Program-made: the position numbers and the translations under genes | Notes under the pieces: generated by a model | The model's database searches: none | What the model was told of the DNA's origin: nothing | Seen by the model: the letters and a program-made list of their open reading frames with translations, nothing else | From: Streptomyces griseus | GTDB taxonomy: Bacteria > Bdellovibrionota > Bdellovibrionia > Bdellovibrionales > Bdellovibrionaceae | Length of the DNA: 64,000 nt | Direction of reading: 5' to 3' | Assembly (NCBI GenBank): GCA_943330705.2 | Contig: CALQIT020000001.1 | Coordinates: 62,001 to 126,000 of the forward strand | In this document: positions 12,155 through 21,714 of the stretch, in pieces | How positions within the stretch are numbered: position 1 is the first letter of the stretch | Layout of the letters: the number at the start of each line of letters is the position of its first letter

Positions 12155-12586
12155 CTAGCCAGCGGAAAGAAACTTCGAAAGCAGCGGACCAATCAAGACG
12201 ATAAAGAATGCAGGGAACTGCAATAAAAGCAGTGGAAGTAGGGCTTTAAATGGTAAAGTTGCACAAAATGTTTCAAGTTCGGCCTTTACGACCTCTTTCA
12301 ATTCTGACTCAAGCAGACAAAGTTGGCCGTAAACGGGTTCACCACGAAAGGCTTGCTCCAGCAGCAAAAGAGTTGCGCGGCGATGATGGCTTGAAAGATT
12401 TTTAAGGGTTGAATAGGTCTCTTGATTGGTATTTAGCCGATGCAGCCATTGACTCAGGAACATTCTCCAGTCCTCATCACCAGCCTCTTGCAGGTATTTG
12501 TTGAGCGAGCTGCGTGCGGACTCACCCTGCTCCATGCCCATCTTAATGAAGCTTGCGATATCAAGTGCTGGCGCTAAACCTTCCAT
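12155..12586 (-). CDS. Short TadC-like (T2SS F-domain) membrane protein
   Basis: About 143 residues from ATG 12586, chosen for a GGAG six bases upstream; a start at 12616 would also be open. The body is helical (LDIASFIKMGMEQG; ESELKEVVKAELE) and ends in one long hydrophobic helix, PFKALLPLLLLQFPAFFIVL, much like the C-terminal end of TadC pilus platform proteins. It is about half the length of normal TadC. It overlaps the preceding TadB-like gene by 13 bases. No TadA ATPase is adjacent. The role in a Tad/Flp-type pilus is inferred. Confidence 0.5.
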   Translation of the reverse strand: MEGLAPALDIASFIKMGMEQGESARSSLNKYLQEAGDEDWRMFLSQWLHRLNTNQETYSTLKNLSSHHRRATLLLLEQAFRGEPVYGQLCLLESELKEVVKAELETFCATLPFKALLPLLLLQFPAFFIVLIGPLLSKFLSAG

Positions 12587-13305
12587 CGATATCTCCGACC
12601 AAGACTCATTAACCAATAGAAACCCAAAGAAAAAAGCACGAAAGCAAAAGCGAATAGTCTAAGATTTGAGACAAATCCACTTTGAAAAACCTGAAAACAG
12701 CAGACTCCAAAGAAGAAAAGACCAAGAACTGCACCCTGAATTCGAACTTGATACATCGCTTGTCTAGACTTCTGTCGAAATTGCAACTGCAAGCTATATC
12801 TTTCGCGCAGGGCCTTAAGTTTTTCCAGTTGTTTTTGCCTTTGAACTTCCACTTTGGCAATTTCAGCGAAGAATTTGGCCTCCAAACCGGTAGTTGTCTC
12901 ATTTTGAAATTCGGATTTCTCGAAATAGTTTTTCCATGGCGGCTGTAACCAACAAGGTAAGTAGTAATAGTGCTCATTTAGTGCAGTTTTTAAGGACGCG
13001 CCTGAGCGAATTCGCAAGATCAAAGCATCGAGTATCGAAACCCTAAGAATAAATAGCTGTGCGGATCTCAGGCTTTGCACGGCACCAATAATTAAAACTG
13101 GCGACAACAATAATAGAACAAGAAGAACGAAATGAAGAATTTGATACTTTTGTCCGACGAAGTTGATCAGCAAAACGGAAAATAAAGTCAGAACGTGGAT
13201 TTTTTTGCTGTGTTTTTCTTCGATCAATCTCATTTTGAAAATAATAAGTGCAATCCGATGCCCGATTAGTATTCCGATCATCGATAGTAGTAGCCACAAT
13301 ACCAT
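12574..13305 (-). CDS. TadB-like (T2SS F-domain) inner-membrane protein
   Basis: A 243-residue protein with hydrophobic helices at the N-terminus (residues 1-23, about 40-52 and 57-78). A central cytoplasmic region follows, with an RSGASLKTAL motif typical of the F-domain of TadB/TadC and GspF proteins. Two more membrane helices close the C-terminus. A long charged segment (EVQRQKQLEKLKALRERY) lies between. ATG 13305 has a GGAGG seven bases upstream. It forms a two-gene unit with the TadC-like gene. The family assignment rests on the motif and topology only. Confidence 0.5.
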   Translation of the reverse strand: MVLWLLLSMIGILIGHRIALIIFKMRLIEEKHSKKIHVLTLFSVLLINFVGQKYQILHFVLLVLLLLSPVLIIGAVQSLRSAQLFILRVSILDALILRIRSGASLKTALNEHYYYLPCWLQPPWKNYFEKSEFQNETTTGLEAKFFAEIAKVEVQRQKQLEKLKALRERYSLQLQFRQKSRQAMYQVRIQGAVLGLFFFGVCCFQVFQSGFVSNLRLFAFAFVLFSLGFYWLMSLGRRYRWKV

Positions 13306-13567: not shown

Positions 13568-13600
13568 AAAAAACCCTCGAGAAATCGAGGGTTTTTTTTT
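13568..13600 (+). terminator. Rho-independent terminator of the Lys/Ala peptide gene
   Basis: Stem CCCTCGA/TCGAGGG with a GAAA tetraloop (13581-13584), extended by A/T pairs and followed by nine T residues (13592-13600). The matching A run upstream makes it potentially bidirectional. Confidence 0.92.
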
Positions 13601-13654: not shown

Positions 13655-14323
13655 TTAAAAGTAATAGATGTATCCAGTAGCCCCAGTGGGTACCGGAGAT
13701 GGGTTGTTAAGCTCCATCAAAAATACGACCTCAACATAAACTGACGATCCGATATACTCCCCAAAAAGCTGATAGTATTGGAATCCCAAAGATGGAATCA
13801 GAAAATCCTTAGAAAACTGACCTGACGATTTCTCTTCGTCAGTCAGATACTTGTTCACCAGAATACTTGGATTTGAGGACGATATCGGACCTTTCGAGGC
13901 ATTTGAGCTATGCCAGCGTGAATAGCCGACGGTTGCATAGGGGGCAAAAGCGATACCTCCAAAAACATGCTTCCACTCTAAGGCCAATGCATTATAACGA
14001 TTCCCTCCGCCAAATTGTCCTAAAAAGGAATCAGCTGGAGCAAAGTTCAACTCAATTACGGCTCCGGCCATCCCAACTTGTCCATAAGCAGTCAAGCCAA
14101 CCCCAGCACGGCGTCGGGTCCGCAGTTCCATGGCATCGTCAAAGTCCTGTTTTTTAAGTTCCTCTCGGATGGATTTGCGACTGCTGAGTGGCTGAATTAT
14201 ATCTCTGCCACTTTTCTTTTTGGCGGCAATATCAACTTCTTCAAATAGAACCGCAGGTCCGGCAAAAGTATGCAAACAAAGGAGAAACGAAAAAACCGCA
14301 AAAATCCTGCATTTTTTGATCAT
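13655..14323 (-). CDS. Putative outer-membrane beta-barrel protein ending the mla operon
   Basis: A 222-residue protein with an N-terminal signal peptide (hydrophobic FAVFSFLLCLHTFAG, cleavage near residue 22). After a charged region, the last 150 residues alternate hydrophobic and polar positions with many Gly and aromatic residues (VGLTAYGQVGMAGAVIELNF, FAPYATVGYSRW). The protein ends in YIYYF, the terminal-aromatic signal used by the BAM complex. The start codon directly follows the mlaD stop (TAAATG), so the two are cotranscribed. An outer-membrane partner for lipid transport is an inference. I do not recognise a named family. Confidence 0.6.
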   Translation of the reverse strand: MIKKCRIFAVFSFLLCLHTFAGPAVLFEEVDIAAKKKSGRDIIQPLSSRKSIREELKKQDFDDAMELRTRRRAGVGLTAYGQVGMAGAVIELNFAPADSFLGQFGGGNRYNALALEWKHVFGGIAFAPYATVGYSRWHSSNASKGPISSSNPSILVNKYLTDEEKSSGQFSKDFLIPSLGFQYYQLFGEYIGSSVYVEVVFLMELNNPSPVPTGATGYIYYF

Positions 14324-15100
14324 TTAAAAGATCCTCGCTTTCACGCCCTCAGTTTGTAAAAATTTTCGAATTGCTGGTCCATCTAGATCTTCCAACCGAA
14401 ACAAAAGCTTATGAACTAAGGTATAGGTCTCTTCTGCTTTTTTACCACGCATAGCGCCAGTCAGATATACAACGTCATCACTAATTTTAATCACGTTATC
14501 GATCAAGTGCGCTACCTCTTTGTTTTTCGAGGTTTTCTCTAGAAGAGCTAACGTCTTATTGAAATTAGTCACTAGCCTGTCGAGCTGATCAATGACGTTG
14601 GTAACGTTACCCTTGTTTTTTTCGACAAGCTCAAGAATCTTTCCGGCCAAACCATAACTTTGTGAAATCAGTTGATCAATGCGAGGCGGATCTTCGCCGC
14701 GGATCGTATCGCCGGACTTAAACTCAGTCTCTGTCGTATTTCCTGGGGAAATTTCCAAAAATTTTTCGCCAATAACTCCGGCCAGGTTAATAAAAAACCT
14801 AGAGTCTTTACGAATACTTGACCATGCTTTCTTTTCAACATTAATCAAGACACGAAGCTTGACCTCTTCACCCGTTCCAGATTTTTGCTGAGGATCAAAA
14901 ACGATCTTTTTAACTTTTCCTACTTTTATTCCCATGACCCGCACTGGTGAACCTTCTTCCAACCCGCCGGCATAATTATAGGTAACATTCAATTCATAGG
15001 CATTGGTAAACGGATTTAAGATACCCAGCACATAAGCAAAAACCACCAACAGAATAACGGATCCGACAAAAAGCAAACCGACCTTGGTCTCGACCTTCAT
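14324..15100 (-). CDS. mlaD: MCE-domain substrate-binding protein (MlaD-like)
   Basis: Periplasmic lipid-binding subunit of an Mla-type ABC transporter, anchored by one N-terminal helix (residues 7-28, VGLLFVGSVILLVVFAYVLG). The MCE domain follows at about 35-115 (GGLEEGSPVRVMGIKVGKV; FFINLAGVIGEKFLEISPG). A helical C-terminal part of about 130 residues is longer than in E. coli MlaD. I chose ATG 15100 for its AAAGGA upstream; a TTG at 15139 would also be open. It is the only MCE protein in the operon. The C-terminal helices could form a tube like those of other MCE proteins. Confidence 0.85.
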   Translation of the reverse strand: MKVETKVGLLFVGSVILLVVFAYVLGILNPFTNAYELNVTYNYAGGLEEGSPVRVMGIKVGKVKKIVFDPQQKSGTGEEVKLRVLINVEKKAWSSIRKDSRFFINLAGVIGEKFLEISPGNTTETEFKSGDTIRGEDPPRIDQLISQSYGLAGKILELVEKNKGNVTNVIDQLDRLVTNFNKTLALLEKTSKNKEVAHLIDNVIKISDDVVYLTGAMRGKKAEETYTLVHKLLFRLEDLDGPAIRKFLQTEGVKARIF

Positions 15101-15135
15101 AAACATCCTTTGTTCAATACACTTCAATCGTTTCT

Positions 15136-15909
15136 TCAATAGAAGTGAGAAAAAGTGTACGATAAAATAAAATCAATAACAATAATTGCGACGGAAGAAA
15201 CAACAACACTATTTGTGGTCGCAGTGCCAACACCCTCAGCGCCAGCCTGGCATCTAAATCCAAAGTGACAGCTTACCAGGGGGATCACCGCCCCGAAGGC
15301 TGCCCCTTTGATGGCGGCAAATATCAAGTCTTGAAAACTGACAAATCGCTGCATTGCCGTTATAAAGTCGCCTTCTGTAAACCCCAAATACGACTGTGAA
15401 ACCAACATTGCACAGTACAGGCAAATCATATTTGCAAAAATTGTCAAAGCCGTGCAACCCAAGACACAAGCAATAAATCGTGGAACAACCAAAAATCGAA
15501 CTGGGTCAATTCCCAGCATTTTAAGGGCATCTATTTGCTCAGTGATTTGCATGCTTCCGACTTCTGCCGCAATTCCTGCACCAACTCTTGAGGTTAACAG
15601 CAAGGCGGTGACCACGGCACCAAGCTCCCTGAGAATCAACATTGCTGCAAATCCAGGCACCATCGAGTCGCTTTGGATAACAATTTTCATGTGAAACGAG
15701 CTTTCAAGAATTGTAACCATCGCTGCAAAGCAGACACAGAATACAATAATCAACAGCGATCCATTTGCGACAAAGAAGATCTGCTGCACGGTCTCTTTAA
15801 GACGATAGGGCTTTTGAAAAATTCCAAGCATTGTTTTAGCAGTCATTTCAATAAGCTGCGAAAGGGAATGCCAAATATGAATAAGCGTAAATCCAAGTGC
15901 CGTGACCAT
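15136..15909 (-). CDS. MlaE-type permease, second copy
   Basis: A 257-residue integral membrane protein of the MlaE/YrbE family, which carries phospholipid between the inner membrane and the MCE protein. The hallmark block is GAVVTALLLTSRVGAGIAAEVG, followed by ITEQIDALKMLGIDPVRFLVVPR. About five membrane helices are predicted by hydrophobicity. It is clearly different from the permease encoded just upstream (start directly after that gene's stop, TAAATG). Two distinct permeases imply a heterodimeric channel, as with mycobacterial YrbEA/YrbEB. Confidence 0.88.
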   Translation of the reverse strand: MVTALGFTLIHIWHSLSQLIEMTAKTMLGIFQKPYRLKETVQQIFFVANGSLLIIVFCVCFAAMVTILESSFHMKIVIQSDSMVPGFAAMLILRELGAVVTALLLTSRVGAGIAAEVGSMQITEQIDALKMLGIDPVRFLVVPRFIACVLGCTALTIFANMICLYCAMLVSQSYLGFTEGDFITAMQRFVSFQDLIFAAIKGAAFGAVIPLVSCHFGFRCQAGAEGVGTATTNSVVVSSVAIIVIDFILSYTFSHFY

Positions 15910-16686
15910 TTATCCCTCAAGAAAAATTCGTAATACAACATCCGACAAAAAGGTCGTAAGCCAGTCCGCAATCACAATCCCAACCATCGTGGCAACGGCT
16001 GTTTTTACCACTGCCATGCCAACCCCTTTTGCCCCGCCCGTTGCTGTATACCCACGATAGGTACAAATTGTAGAAAGCACCACTGCAAAGACAAAACATT
16101 TAAAAAGTCCGCTGGCTATTGATGGCCAAGAAACTATGGTCGGAATATGGCGAACATATTCATCGGCATTGACACCGGCAAAGATCGAACCCATCAACAT
16201 TCCGCCCAAAATTGACATTAGCAAGCCGATCCCTAAAAGAAAGAAGCTCGAGACAATGATGCCAATAAAGCGAGGTACGATTATTTCTTGAATTGGATTT
16301 GCACCCAGGCAGCGAATTGCGTCTATTTGCTCGGTCACTCGCATCGTTCCTAATTCAGCCGAGGTAAACGCCCCAACCTTTCCGCTTAACATAAATGCAA
16401 TAAGCAAAGGACCAACCTCACGAATAGTTCCGCTGGTTGCAAGGCCACCTAAGTACCCTAAAGCGCCAAATTCCTTCATCTGCATGGTAAATTGCACCGT
16501 CATAATCGCCCCGACAAAAAATCCGGCAAGCCCGGTTGTGGCCACACTTTGCACGGTCACCCGCCAGATTTGGGTCAGAACCTCATGCATCGAAACTGGA
16601 CGCGCTACTGCAGTCCACATTACTTCTCTTAAAAAAAGCAGGGCTGCGCCTATATCAGCGATGATAAGACGCAAGTTATTTAGCAT
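15910..16686 (-). CDS. mlaE: MlaE-type permease, first copy
   Basis: A second MlaE-family permease of 258 residues. The family block is GPLLIAFMLSGKVGAFTSAELGTM, followed by RVTEQIDAIRCLGANPIQEIIVPR. ATG 16686 has GAGG seven bases upstream and overlaps the ATPase gene end by 11 bases; an upstream TTG at 16698 is less likely. An N-terminal amphipathic region (LFLREVMWTAVARPVSMHE) precedes the membrane helices. It probably pairs with the product of the next gene. Confidence 0.88.
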   Translation of the reverse strand: MLNNLRLIIADIGAALLFLREVMWTAVARPVSMHEVLTQIWRVTVQSVATTGLAGFFVGAIMTVQFTMQMKEFGALGYLGGLATSGTIREVGPLLIAFMLSGKVGAFTSAELGTMRVTEQIDAIRCLGANPIQEIIVPRFIGIIVSSFFLLGIGLLMSILGGMLMGSIFAGVNADEYVRHIPTIVSWPSIASGLFKCFVFAVVLSTICTYRGYTATGGAKGVGMAVVKTAVATMVGIVIADWLTTFLSDVVLRIFLEG

Positions 16687-17425
16687 TTTGAGCCTCAATT
16701 GCTAAAGATTCAGAAAGAAAATCGATAACTAAGGGTGCTTTTGATTTTCGCAGCTCTGCCGGAGTTCCTTGGTCAACAATCTGCCCCTGATCTAAGACAA
16801 CAATCCGATCGGCAATTTCAAGCGCACATTGCATATCATGACTAACAACAATAGACGTCGTTTTTAAGGTGCGGGAAAGGTTAAGAATCAGATGGTTCAC
16901 TGCATTTGTTGTTACCGGATCTAAACCCGTTGTGGGTTCATCAAAAAGTAGAATTTTCGGTTCCAAAGCGACGGTTCGGGCAAGACTGACTCGTTTTTGC
17001 ATTCCGTATGAAATCTGCGTTGGTAATTTATTTTCAATACCCTTCAGATTCACTAAAGAAAGGGCTTTGCCAACTTTTTCTTTGATCTGATCTTCACTCA
17101 GTCGATAGTGCTTTCTCAAGCCAAAGGCGACATTTTCAAAAACTGTAAGGGAATCAAACAAAGCGGGTTGCTGAAAAACCATTCCACATTTTTTGCGAAT
17201 TTCTAAGTACTCAAGCTCGGTCAAGCGTGAGGTTTCTTGGCCGTCAATCCATATTTCGCCAGCGTCCGGAATTAACAACCCGACTAGGTTTTTCAACAAA
17301 ACTGATTTACCGGTTCCGGAGGTTCCTAAAATGAATAGAATTTCGCCCTCGCCGACCTTAAAACTTAGACCCTTTAATACTTTACGACTGCCAAAGCTTT
17401 TTTCCAATTTTATGAATTCAATCAT
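16676..17425 (-). CDS. mlaF: MlaF-type ABC ATPase with altered signature motif (first ATPase)
   Basis: ABC ATPase of 249 residues. Walker A is GTSGTGKS. The Q-loop is MVFQQPALF. Walker B is ILLFDEPTTGLDP with the catalytic Glu, and the switch is VVSHDM with the His. The signature motif, however, reads ISYGMQKR instead of the usual LSGGMQ: the Tyr codon TAC lies at 17008-17006. The catalytic residues of this subunit are therefore intact while its signature is altered. It overlaps the second ATPase gene by four bases. Its defects complement those of that neighbour. Confidence 0.9.
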   Translation of the reverse strand: MIEFIKLEKSFGSRKVLKGLSFKVGEGEILFILGTSGTGKSVLLKNLVGLLIPDAGEIWIDGQETSRLTELEYLEIRKKCGMVFQQPALFDSLTVFENVAFGLRKHYRLSEDQIKEKVGKALSLVNLKGIENKLPTQISYGMQKRVSLARTVALEPKILLFDEPTTGLDPVTTNAVNHLILNLSRTLKTTSIVVSHDMQCALEIADRIVVLDQGQIVDQGTPAELRKSKAPLVIDFLSESLAIEAQNAK

Positions 17426-18195
17426 TCAATCACCGTTAGTGGTCCTTCAAGTTGCCCACGAATAAACTGCCGAACTCGCGCATCTTGTTCTTTTTTCGTT
17501 TGCTCAACGGTTCCGGTGACAATAACACCCTTGTCGACAACCATCGCTATTCGGTCGGCCATTTGGTAAGCTCGGTTCATATCATTAGTAATCGCGATGA
17601 CGGTCGCATTGTCTTTTTTCTGCAATTCTTTAATCAGGTCAATAATTTTACGACTTGTGATCGGGTCTAGGCCTGCAGTTGGGTCGTCATAAAAGATAAT
17701 TTCTGGTTTAAGTGCCAAGGCCCGCGCAATTCCCAAACGCTTTTGCATTCCACCGCTGATTTCATCGGGATATAGATCTTTGGCTTGCGGGAGTCCAACC
17801 GCTTCTAAAAAGCGAACCACCGTCTGATCAATTTCAACTTCGCTGGCAGAAGTCACTTCCCGCATCGGAAATGCAATGTTGTTACCAACAGTCATTGAGT
17901 CAAACAGGGCATTTTTTTGAAAAAGCATTCCAAGTTTATAAAGAAGTTCTTGTTTCTCTCGCGTAGATAAAATCTGCCAATTTTTTCCCCGGACCAAGAC
18001 CGACCCCGAAGTCGGAGTAATCAGTCCAGCCATTAATTTAAGCAAAACTGTTTTGCCTTGGCCAGACGGACCTACAATAACAAAGTTTTCACCTTCGTAA
18101 ATTTCAAGGGATACATTTTTTAGAATCGTTTCCTCGCCAAAGGTCACAGTGACATCAAGTAGCTCGATTGCTTTTGGACTACTATTCAACGCCAT
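17422..18195 (-). CDS. MlaF-type ABC ATPase lacking catalytic Glu and switch His (second ATPase)
   Basis: ABC ATPase of 257 residues, first gene of the mla operon. Walker A is GPSGQGKT and the signature EISGGMQKR is canonical. Walker B reads IIFYDDPTAGLDP: Asp replaces the catalytic Glu (codon within 17688-17683). The switch region reads IAITNDM, with Asn (17586-17584) in place of His. It should bind ATP but hydrolyse it poorly. Together with the other ATPase it could form one good and one degenerate site. Divergent from mdh across an 89-base spacer. Confidence 0.9.
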   Translation of the reverse strand: MALNSSPKAIELLDVTVTFGEETILKNVSLEIYEGENFVIVGPSGQGKTVLLKLMAGLITPTSGSVLVRGKNWQILSTREKQELLYKLGMLFQKNALFDSMTVGNNIAFPMREVTSASEVEIDQTVVRFLEAVGLPQAKDLYPDEISGGMQKRLGIARALALKPEIIFYDDPTAGLDPITSRKIIDLIKELQKKDNATVIAITNDMNRAYQMADRIAMVVDKGVIVTGTVEQTKKEQDARVRQFIRGQLEGPLTVIE

Positions 18196-18284: not shown

Positions 18285-19229
18285 ATGGCTTTCAAAAGAA
18301 AGAAAATCACGGTCATTGGTGCTGGCTTCGTTGGTTCAACATGCGCACATTGGGCTGCCGCAAAAGAACTCGGCGACGTTGTCCTACTTGATATCAATGA
18401 GGGTGCTGCTAAGGGAAAGAGTCTTGACCTCTACGAAGCTGCTCCCGTCGAACAATTTGATGCTAAAGTCACGGGCACCGCAGATTACAAAGACATTGCG
18501 GACTCTGACGTTGTCATCATGACGGCTGGTATTCCGAGAAAACCGGGCATGAGCCGTGATGATCTTCTATCAACCAACGCGAAAATTATGAAAGAAGCTT
18601 GCGAAGGCATTAAAAAATATGCGCCAAACTGCGTTTTGATCGTGGTCAGCAATCCTTTGGATGCAATGGCCTACGTTGCAAAACAAGTCACGGGCTTCCC
18701 GCGCGAACGAGTCCTCGGTATGGCTGGGGTTTTGGATACAGCGCGATTTCGCGCTTTTATATCTGAAGAGCTTAACGTTTCAGTTAAAGACGTGCAGGCG
18801 ATTGTTCTTGGCGGCCACGGCGACACCATGGTGCCGATGCCAAGACATTGCTCCGTTGGCGGCGTGCCCTTGATGGAGATGATGGAGCCTGCAAAACTTG
18901 AGGCCCTGATTCAACGAACTCGCGCCGGTGGTGCAGAAATCGTGAATCTATTAAAAACGGGCTCTGCATATTACGCGCCCTCTGCATCTGCTGTGCAAAT
19001 GGCGGAAGCGATATTAAAGGATCAAAACAGAATTCTGCCATGTGCGGTGGAATTAAACGGCGAATATGGAGTAAAAGGGTTTTTTGTCGGTGTTCTTTGT
19101 AAACTCAACGGCAAAGGTCTAGATAAAGTGATCGAGCTAAAGCTAAATGACGCTGAAAAGGCAATGCTTAACAACTCAGTCAAAGCCGTAGAAGATCTTG
19201 TTGGGGCCCTTAAAAACATTCAATACTAG
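18285..19229 (+). CDS. mdh: Malate dehydrogenase (LDH-like type)
   Basis: NAD-dependent oxidation of malate to oxaloacetate in the TCA cycle. The NAD fold motif GAGFVG is at residues 12-17 and the adenosine-ribose Asp at 36. The substrate loop IPRKPGMSR carries the malate-type arginine (Arg85 rather than the Gln of lactate dehydrogenases), and the catalytic His178 is in [10 protein letters not shown]. The length of 314 residues is typical. A strong AAGGAG lies eight bases before ATG. It is followed at short spacing by sucC, sucD and ndk, a TCA operon. Confidence 0.94.
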
Positions 19230-19237
19230 GTTGGTCT

Positions 19238-20404
19238 ATGAATATTCATGAGTTTCAAGCAAAAGAAGTTCTTAGAAAATATGGAGTGGTCACTTTAAAA
19301 GGTAAGGTGGCCTCAAACAGCGACGAAGCAGTTGCTGCAGCCAAAGAAATCGGCGGCAATGTGTGGGTTGTTAAAGCTCAGATACACGCAGGTGGCCGCG
19401 GAAAAGGTGGCGGCGTAAAATTAGCTAAGTCCATTGAGGAAGTTCGCGAGCTCTCACAAAAAATAATTGGAATGACCTTAGTGACCCCGCAAACCGGTCC
19501 TCAAGGAAAAAAAGTGAATCGTGTTTATATTGAGGCTGGTTGCAATATCGCCAAAGAATTTTACGCAGCGATGTTGATCGATCGAGTTACCGGCCGACCT
19601 GCACTTATTGCCAGTTCGCAGGGTGGTATGGATATCGAAGAAGTAGCGCACTCCAGTCCAAACGCAATTATGAAAATCGATATTGATCCGGTTACAGGCT
19701 TAATGCCCTATCAAGGTCGGGAAGTGGCTTTTGCCTTAGGCGTGCCCGCTGAATCCATTAGCAAAGCTGTTGGATTTTTCCAGGGTCTTTATCGGGCCTT
19801 TATGGAAAAAGATTGCTCAATGGCAGAGATCAACCCTTTGGTTTTGACTAAAGAAGGTGACCTCATTGCCTTGGATGCAAAGATGAATTTTGACTCGAAT
19901 GCTTTGTATCGACAAAAAGACATCCTTGAGTACCGGGATTTAACTGAAGAAGAACCGACAGAAATAGAGGCCTCTAAGTACGACCTTGCCTTCATTAAGC
20001 TGGATGGAAAAATCGGCTGCTTAGTGAATGGAGCAGGTTTGGCAATGGCGACGCTGGATATCATTAAGTTACACGGTGAAACTCCTGCTAACTTTTTGGA
20101 TGTCGGCGGCGGCGCGAATAAGGAAAAAGTAACGGCAGCCTTCAAAATAATTCTGAAGGATCCCTCTGTTCGGGGGATTTTAGTGAATATTTTTGGTGGA
20201 ATTATGAAATGCGATATTATTGCTGATGGTGTTATTTCGGCGTCAAAAGAAGTTGGTATAAAAGTTCCCTTGGTCGTTCGCCTCGAAGGAACCAACGTCG
20301 AACTGGGTAAAAAAATGCTTCTTGATAGTGGTCTGAATATAATTCCAGCAAACGATTTGACGGACGCGGCTCAAAAAATCGTTGCTGCCGTGAAAGGGAA
20401 ATAA
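19238..20404 (+). CDS. sucC: Succinyl-CoA synthetase beta subunit
   Basis: ADP/GDP-forming succinate-CoA ligase, nucleotide-binding subunit (ATP-grasp fold). The N-terminal [16 protein letters not shown] and the [14 protein letters not shown] loop near residues 50-63 are diagnostic. The C-terminal half has [13 protein letters not shown] and FGGIMKCD. The length of 388 residues is standard. It starts eight bases after mdh and is two bases from sucD, so the operon is tightly packed. Confidence 0.96.
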
Positions 20405-20406
20405 TC

Positions 20407-21276
20407 ATGGCAATTCTTATAGATTCGAATACCAAGTTGATTACTCAAGGATTTACCGGTGCCCAAGGATCTTTTCACTCTGAGCAGTGTTTGGCCTATG
20501 GAACTAAACTGGTTGGCGGCGTTACACCTGGAAAAGGTGGTACGAAACATCTGAATCTTCCGGTTTTTAATACCGTGAAAGAAGCAAAAGCGGCAACTGG
20601 CTGCAATGCTTCAATGGTATTTGTGCCGCCGTCCTTTGCCGCAGACTCGATTATGGAGGCTGTCGAGGCAGATCTCGATTTAGTTGTCTGTATTACTGAA
20701 GGGATTCCGGTCATCGACATGGTACGAGTCAGACGCTTTATGGAAGGCCGAAGAACTCGCTTAATTGGGCCCAATTGCCCAGGAGTTATTACCCCAGGAC
20801 AATGTAAAATTGGCATTATGCCCGGGCATATTCATAAACCAGGACGCATAGGCGTGCTATCCCGATCTGGAACCTTGACCTACGAGGCTGTCCACCAACT
20901 CACGGCAGTTGGACTTGGACAAAGCACCTGCGTGGGAATCGGCGGGGACCCCGTCAATGGAACCAACTTTGTAGACGTTTTAAAGTTATACAACGCAGAT
21001 CCAGATACGGATGCAGTGATTTTGATTGGAGAAATCGGCGGTTCAGCTGAAGAAGATGCCGCAGCCTACATCAAAAGAGAGTTTAAAAAACCAGTGGCGG
21101 CATTTATTGCAGGCGCCAGTGCCCCAAAAGGCAAACGAATGGGCCACGCCGGTGCCATCGTCAGCGGTGGTCAGGGCACGGCAGAAGCAAAATTTGCAGC
21201 CCTTGAAGCTGCAGGTTGCAAAATTTCACGAAGTCCTGCAGATATGGGCAGGACACTAAAATCACTGCTAAAGTAA
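20407..21276 (+). CDS. sucD: Succinyl-CoA synthetase alpha subunit
   Basis: Holds the CoA site and the phosphohistidine of succinyl-CoA synthetase. [14 protein letters not shown] near the N-terminus is the CoA-binding loop, and [14 protein letters not shown] contains the active-site His247. The length of 289 residues is normal. The ATG is two bases after the sucC stop and ndk follows at 12 bases. Confidence 0.96.
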
Positions 21277-21288
21277 CAAGGAGCAAAT

Positions 21289-21714
21289 ATGGCCCTCGAA
21301 AAAACTTTCTCGATTATCAAACCAAATGCGATGAAAAAAAATTGCCTTGGTGACATTATTTCAATGTTTGAAGCCAATGGCCTAAAAATCGCAGGTGCAA
21401 AAATTGCGATTATGTCAAAATCAAAGGCTGAAGAATTCTATGCCGAGCATAAAGCTCGTCCTTTCTTCGCCGAATTGGTAAGTTTTATGACTTCAGGCCC
21501 AGTGCTTTTAATGTGTTTAGCTGGGGAAAATGCTGTCGCAAAAAATCGAGAAATTATGGGCGCTACAGACCCAAAAAAGGCAAATCCAGGTACGATTCGC
21601 TTTAAATTTGGCGACAACGTAGGAGAAAACGCGGCCCACGGATCGGATAGTGCAGCCAGTGCAGAGCGCGAACTTGCTTTGTTTTTCGAAAAAAACGAAA
21701 TCTGCAACGCTTAG
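21289..21714 (+). CDS. ndk: Nucleoside diphosphate kinase
   Basis: Transfers the gamma-phosphate between nucleoside triphosphates and diphosphates. The ping-pong histidine is His117 in NAAHGSDS. The N-terminal [11 protein letters not shown] and the [12 protein letters not shown] loop are standard. The length of 141 residues is typical. AAGGAG precedes the ATG. A terminator 28 bases after the stop ends the mdh-sucCD-ndk operon, a layout that fits GTP-linked succinyl-CoA synthetase output. Confidence 0.96.

Follow-up and report, generated by a model that had tools for sequence, protein, structure and literature searches.

An MCE operon found in relatives of the predator Bdellovibrio (Bdellovibrionota) encodes two MlaF-type ABC ATPases, A1 and A2, whose active-site motifs carry complementary defects, and our analysis shows that both sets of defects are conserved together across the phylum. 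From sequence and gene content, with no complex having been seen, we infer that A1 and A2 very likely form an obligate heterodimer with one working ATP site. The operon lies in a window of 64,000 nucleotides, by which we mean the whole stretch of DNA that was analyzed.

Two unlike ATPases in a six-gene operon

A1 (positions 17422..18195 of the window, minus strand; 257 aa) and A2 (16676..17425, minus strand; 249 aa) were assigned as MlaF-type ATPases by their motifs and, for A1, also by the closest solved structures, the MlaF chains 6xbd, 7d06, and 7ch8. MlaF is the best NCBIfam match of A1 (208 bits) and the second best of A2 (197.6 bits), neither score reaching the cut-off of 441 for the E. 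coli equivalog. The ORF translation of A1 contains GPSGQGKT, EISGGMQKR, IIFYDDPTAGLD, and AITNDM, and that of A2 contains GTSGTGKS, QISYGMQKR, ILLFDEPTTGLD, and VVSHDM. Reduced to their cores, the motifs of A1 are GPSGQGKT (Walker A), SGGMQ (signature), YDDPT (Walker B), and TND (switch), and those of A2 are GTSGTGKS, SYGMQ, FDEPT, and SHD, respectively. The Walker A and signature of A1 are intact, while Asp replaces the catalytic Glu of Walker B and Asn replaces the switch His. In A2, the Glu, the His, and Walker A are intact, and the only defect noted is the Tyr in the signature. The signature Met, typical of Mla-type ATPases (PMC7367683), is shared with E. coli Mla. In an ABC dimer, one subunit contributes the Walker side and the other the signature to each ATP site (PMC7756269). 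The motifs are complementary across the dimer, and therefore a composite A1-A2 dimer would combine a consensus site with a degenerate one.

The six genes occur in the order A1-A2-E1-E2-D-X (ATPase, ATPase, MlaE, MlaE, MCE, outer-membrane barrel). E1 (15910..16698, minus strand) and E2 (15136..15909, minus strand) are MlaE-family permeases (PF02405); the two operon permeases clear the cut-off of 22.5 with 200.8 and 208.3 bits. D (14324..15139, minus strand) is the only MCE protein (PF02470) of the operon and passes its cut-off of 25.1 with 66.2 bits. The genes are tightly packed: A1 and A2 overlap by 4 bases (ATGA), as do E2 and D by 4 bases, and E1/E2 and D/X abut. Just past X lies a terminator-like hairpin of 13 pairs with a T-run on both strands (13568..13597, not assigned to a strand), which is probably the end of the operon.

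X (13655..14323, minus strand) is the conserved last gene of the operon and is predicted to encode a signal peptide and an 8-stranded outer-membrane beta-barrel of OprF/OmpA-like fold. Its C-terminal residue is Phe, as in 44 of 46 X orthologs. The predicted structure has a pLDDT of 85.7 overall and of about 96 within the barrel, and the closest PDB structure is the OprF barrel 4rlc (E 7e-5; TM 0.75 by target length), whereas searches of Pfam and NCBIfam gave no match. MlaA (PF04333) was found in 0 of 20 genomes, including that of the window, with E. coli and Caulobacter as positive controls; MlaC (PF05494) was not found in the window's genome, and one sub-threshold match was obtained among the 20. 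Because MlaA and MlaC are absent, this is not the E. coli Mla pathway. In a genome lacking both, X is a likely candidate for the outer-membrane partner, a role that is inferred. The operon contains no MlaB (STAS) or MlaC gene, and one STAS_2 gene exists elsewhere in the genome.

The divergent neighbor of A1 encodes malate dehydrogenase and is followed by genes for SucC, SucD, and nucleoside diphosphate kinase (ORF translations; window positions 18285-21714). In many relatives (L107, L156, L161, L162, and L181), A1 likewise adjoins mdh/suc genes, and it does so even where the other transporter genes have relocated. Downstream of the operon (12155-13305, minus strand), two adjacent genes encode predicted proteins of 153 and 243 aa without a Pfam match, the larger of which looks membrane-bound.

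The window's genome has 5 MlaE genes versus 4 MCE genes, and the surplus MlaE belongs to the one operon with two ATPases. Among the MCE operons of this genome, only that of the window has two ATPases plus two permeases; the C2 and C33 operons each pair one permease with one ATPase whose SGGM, DEP, and His match the consensus. A further operon, C82 (MlaE, ATPase, MCE), combines one permease with one heavily degenerate ATPase (G000:C82:3314-4108, that is, L207:1815-2609; minus strand), which has lost nearly every catalytic motif. Its Walker A reads ADSGSGRS, the Q-loop Gln is Asp, the signature is VPGGV, Walker B is DDP, the D-loop is GLG, and the switch His is Ser. Matches to this ATPase occur in 44 of the 60 genomes searched, and the 30 C82-type ATPases that were read (relatives L211-L239) share most of the losses, VPGRVRKL being typical. 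The C82 type thus looks to be a conserved pseudo-ATPase MCE system, one for which a simple homodimer model offers no explanation.

The original prediction, made from sequence alone, had given the coordinates of both ATPase ORFs and their motif residues; the coordinates held, both genes being on the minus strand, and all the residues were correct. It was silent on the second feature of the operon, the two different MlaE permeases, and its label "Mla" was loose, as the system combines an MCE/MlaFED core with two permeases and lacks MlaA and MlaC.

Conservation of the complementary defects in Bdellovibrionota

Relatives were taken from genome contigs and a phylum search, and their motifs were read by script. 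The sample comprised 79 distinct linked A1/A2 pairs and was extended to 93 pairs, including four unlinked ones. Across Bdellovibrionota, the genes recur in the order A1-A2-E1-E2-D, in most cases together with X, and no exception to the complementary pattern exists among the 93 distinct pairs. The A1 signature is SGG in 93/93, and A1 has both Glu and His in 0/93; A2 has Glu in 93/93 and His in 93/93 and has Gly at signature position 2 in 0/93, the residues there being Tyr (83 pairs), Phe (9), and His (1). The Walker B/switch combinations of A1 are D/N (65 pairs), E/N (16), E/S (5), E/T (2), D/H (2), D/S (2), and S/H (1). Parsimony on the tree calls for at least 7 Walker B and at least 6 switch changes in A1 and for a minimum of 6 changes at the A2 signature position. 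Since A1 is impaired by differing residues in different lineages, it is the impairment that is conserved, not one inherited mutation. The Walker A Lys and Q-loop Gln of A1 are intact in 79/79 pairs, so that ATP binding should remain, as inferred from these residues, and every A1 retains Walker A, the Q-loop, the SGGMQ signature, and the D-loop. The canonical MlaFs of the phylum (L002, L004, L138-L141, and L143; two are from the window's genome) retain SGGM, Glu, and His.

These counts need to be read with caution. The defects are mostly inherited from a single ancestor, so that 93 operons are not 93 independent events, and the absence of A1 with both Glu and His (0/93) is not significant on its own; by chance, the column frequencies alone would yield about 0.7. 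The A1 switch residue covaries with the A2 signature residue (Fisher p of 0.003), which was considered as further proof of contact and was set aside, as its support was gone once phylogeny was counted. Chance or sequencing error as the source of the substitutions was ruled out by their phylum-wide recurrence in 93 distinct pairs.

Alternatively, the A1/A2 pair might be decaying, with no fixed division of labor. In favor of decay, the residues at the degenerate positions differ somewhat by lineage, and one genus (g3) has no clear A1/A2. However, many families preserve the reading frames, the gene order, and the specific non-canonical residues (A2 Tyr/Phe; Asn in most A1) at 40-80% overall identity, and decay is all but excluded.

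The original prediction of a heterodimer with one degenerate site is thus supported, by sequence and gene content and without a complex having been seen. Co-occurrence of both defect sets in orthologous operons, which had been proposed as its test, held across the phylum. The prediction would have been refuted by a relative with either gene canonical on its own, and none was found, with an incomplete genome (G206) unresolved. The description of A1 needs a refinement: its Walker B Asp is not universal, and the pattern is that A1 always lacks Glu, His, or both.

Ancestry and linkage of A1 and A2

A2 forms one clade (SH-aLRT 99), with the phylum's canonical MlaFs as its neighbors, and A1 is separate. 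The AU test does not reject a single clade of A1 and its solo paralogs (p 0.87). The two permeases mostly group apart; the few switches of E1/E2 label include permeases on contigs without a visible ATPase. Fifteen alignment columns are fixed differently in A1 versus A2, including the signature Gly/Tyr and the switch Asn/His. The columns in which A2 departs from canonical MlaFs and A1 include the signature Gly-to-Tyr change, and the column in which A1 departs from canonical MlaFs and A2 is the switch His-to-Asn change.

A clade of solo A1-like ATPases (L117, L118, L119, L120, L121, L123, L124, L126-L130, L132-L135, L137, and L164) is nested in A1 (SH-aLRT 99); these retain the Walker B Asp, and the switch His is often back. 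No permease or MCE gene was found beside them, and it is conceivable that they swap for A1 in the transporter. A lone, degenerate A1-like ATPase on an alphaproteobacterial contig (L110:418-1203) has an altered Walker A (GAAASGKS), a Walker B Ser, and a switch Ser and adjoins a methionine-sulfoxide-reductase-like gene, with no A2 or permease nearby. The all-species scan relied on peptide patterns from A1 of the window and could have missed distant cousins; the phylum search centered on genomes of Bdellovibrionota only.

A second alternative is that A2 alone is the motor and that A1 is a pseudo-ATPase regulator outside the dimer, in the place of E. coli MlaB. It is consistent with an operon without a STAS/MlaB gene, with an A1 without catalytic residues, and with the occurrence of A1-like solo ATPases without permeases. 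Nevertheless, an outside regulator would not need the invariant Walker A, Q-loop, SGGMQ, and D-loop of A1, and an A2-A2 dimer would carry two defective signatures; we regard this explanation as very unlikely.

Linkage of the two ATPase genes was followed for 139 A2 genes. A1 is on the same contig within 5 kb in 119 cases and on another contig in 5. Thirteen of the other 15 loci were retrieved, and A1 lies beside A2 in 12 of them, the remaining A2 starting at the contig end. The A2 locus of G262 is cut by a contig end, and in G206 (89% complete) A1 was sought and none was found. With the exception of G206, A1 is adjacent to A2 in the loci examined, is elsewhere in the genome, or is cut off by a contig end. 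In G017, G030, and G016, A1 stays by mdh/suc and A2-E1(-E2-D) is elsewhere, and both keep their defects; the separation of A1 and A2 in G020 may be an assembly break. One relative has a natural in-frame A2-E1 fusion of 580 codons (L081:5717-7456 and L188:3609-5348), a hint that A2 may sit on E1.

The third alternative is that the operon encodes two homodimeric transporters, with A1-A1 serving one permease and A2-A2 the other. Two permeases and two ATPases would permit this, a single MCE gene could serve both, and the A2-E1 fusion can be read as an A2-E1 half-transporter. However, all A1-A1 sites would be without Glu and/or His, and all A2-A2 sites would carry the altered signature, which leaves both homodimers without a consensus site. 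The defects are nonetheless maintained in 93/93 pairs, and the perfect A1 signature would be of use only to a partner. This alternative is likewise very unlikely, and an obligate A1-A2 heterodimer remains our preferred reading.

A putative one-site MCE engine

In the proposed model, the transporter engine would consist of A1-A2, E1-E2, and D in the inner membrane, with D probably a hexamer and X its likely outer-membrane partner. Site 1, composed of the Walker A/B and His of A2 with the SGGMQ of A1, would be complete and hydrolyze ATP. Site 2, composed of the Walker A, Asp, and Asn of A1 with the SYGMQ of A2, would still bind ATP but hardly hydrolyze it, if at all. Reasoning from TM287/288, TAP, and CFTR, we propose that ATP retained in site 2 clamps the ATPases together and that site 1 drives each cycle. 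The two different permeases would make the whole engine lopsided. This site chemistry is inferred, as is a lipid substrate, and that the change of the first signature Gly to Tyr impairs hydrolysis in an MCE-type ATPase is presumed.

E. coli MlaFEDB is MlaF2E2D6B2, with an ATPase homodimer and two identical sites (PDB 6xbd, PMC7790496). The window's operon resembles it in having MlaF-type ATPases, MlaE permeases, and one MCE protein and differs from it in having two ATPases, two permeases, and no MlaB or MlaC. Mycobacterial Mce1 has a YrbE1A/YrbE1B permease heterodimer and a MceG homodimer (PDB 8fed, PMC9882608); it is likewise an MCE transporter with two different permeases, but its ATPase is homodimeric, and it has six different MCE proteins versus one here. 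Veillonella MlaEFD is also an MCE core without MlaA, MlaB, or MlaC but has a single mlaE and a single mlaF, and its MCE protein is far longer than that of E. coli (PMC10665443). That a heterodimeric Mla would be unusual, as had been predicted, is consistent with the characterized MCE/Mla structures, in which the ATPase is a homodimer.

Degenerate sites are known from the heterodimeric ABC exporters TM287/288, TAP, TmrAB, and Rv1273c/72c and from CFTR (PMC7756269, PMC5216877, PMC12038006). As in those exporters, one ATPase is without Glu and/or His and keeps its signature, and its partner has an intact Glu and His; in many of them the partner's signature is altered, as in A2. Human degenerate sites all have a changed signature, with Glu-to-Asp the next most frequent change and the H-loop often changed too (PMC7756269); the Rv1273c site has Asp plus Gln (PMC12038006), and that of TM287/288 has an altered signature and is proposed to maintain contact between its ATPases (PMC5216877). 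Conversion to two consensus sites is described as lowering transport in MRP1 and Pdr5 (PMC7756269). The predicted match to the TM287/288 and TAP architecture is supported by the residue pattern. Unlike these exporters, which have fused transmembrane domains and no MCE ring, the system has MlaE permeases; a type I exporter domain fused to the ATPase, as in TM287/288, is lacking, A1 and A2 being separate proteins.

The open-access literature that we searched contains no heterodimeric ATPase in any MCE system, although a prior report elsewhere is not excluded, and nothing on the Mla genes of Bdellovibrio itself. The asymmetric-site principle is already known, and its use in the MCE/Mla class is probably new. 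It is not understood why certain ABC transporters retain a dead ATP site, a question studied mostly in exporters and CFTR, and here the same split of sites appears on an unrelated permease fold, in an MCE transporter. Canonical homodimer-type cousins in the same cells offer a natural comparison of one-site and two-site engines with a similar job. The direction of Mla-type lipid transport is disputed, and distinguishable halves can be labeled or mutated singly. On a bolder reading, which we consider likely as a whole, most of the Bdellovibrionota families sampled would use a fully asymmetric MCE engine with a single hydrolytic site, in which the ATP of the degenerate site is a standing clamp; selection would maintain its lopsidedness, which may set the direction of lipid flow or its gating.
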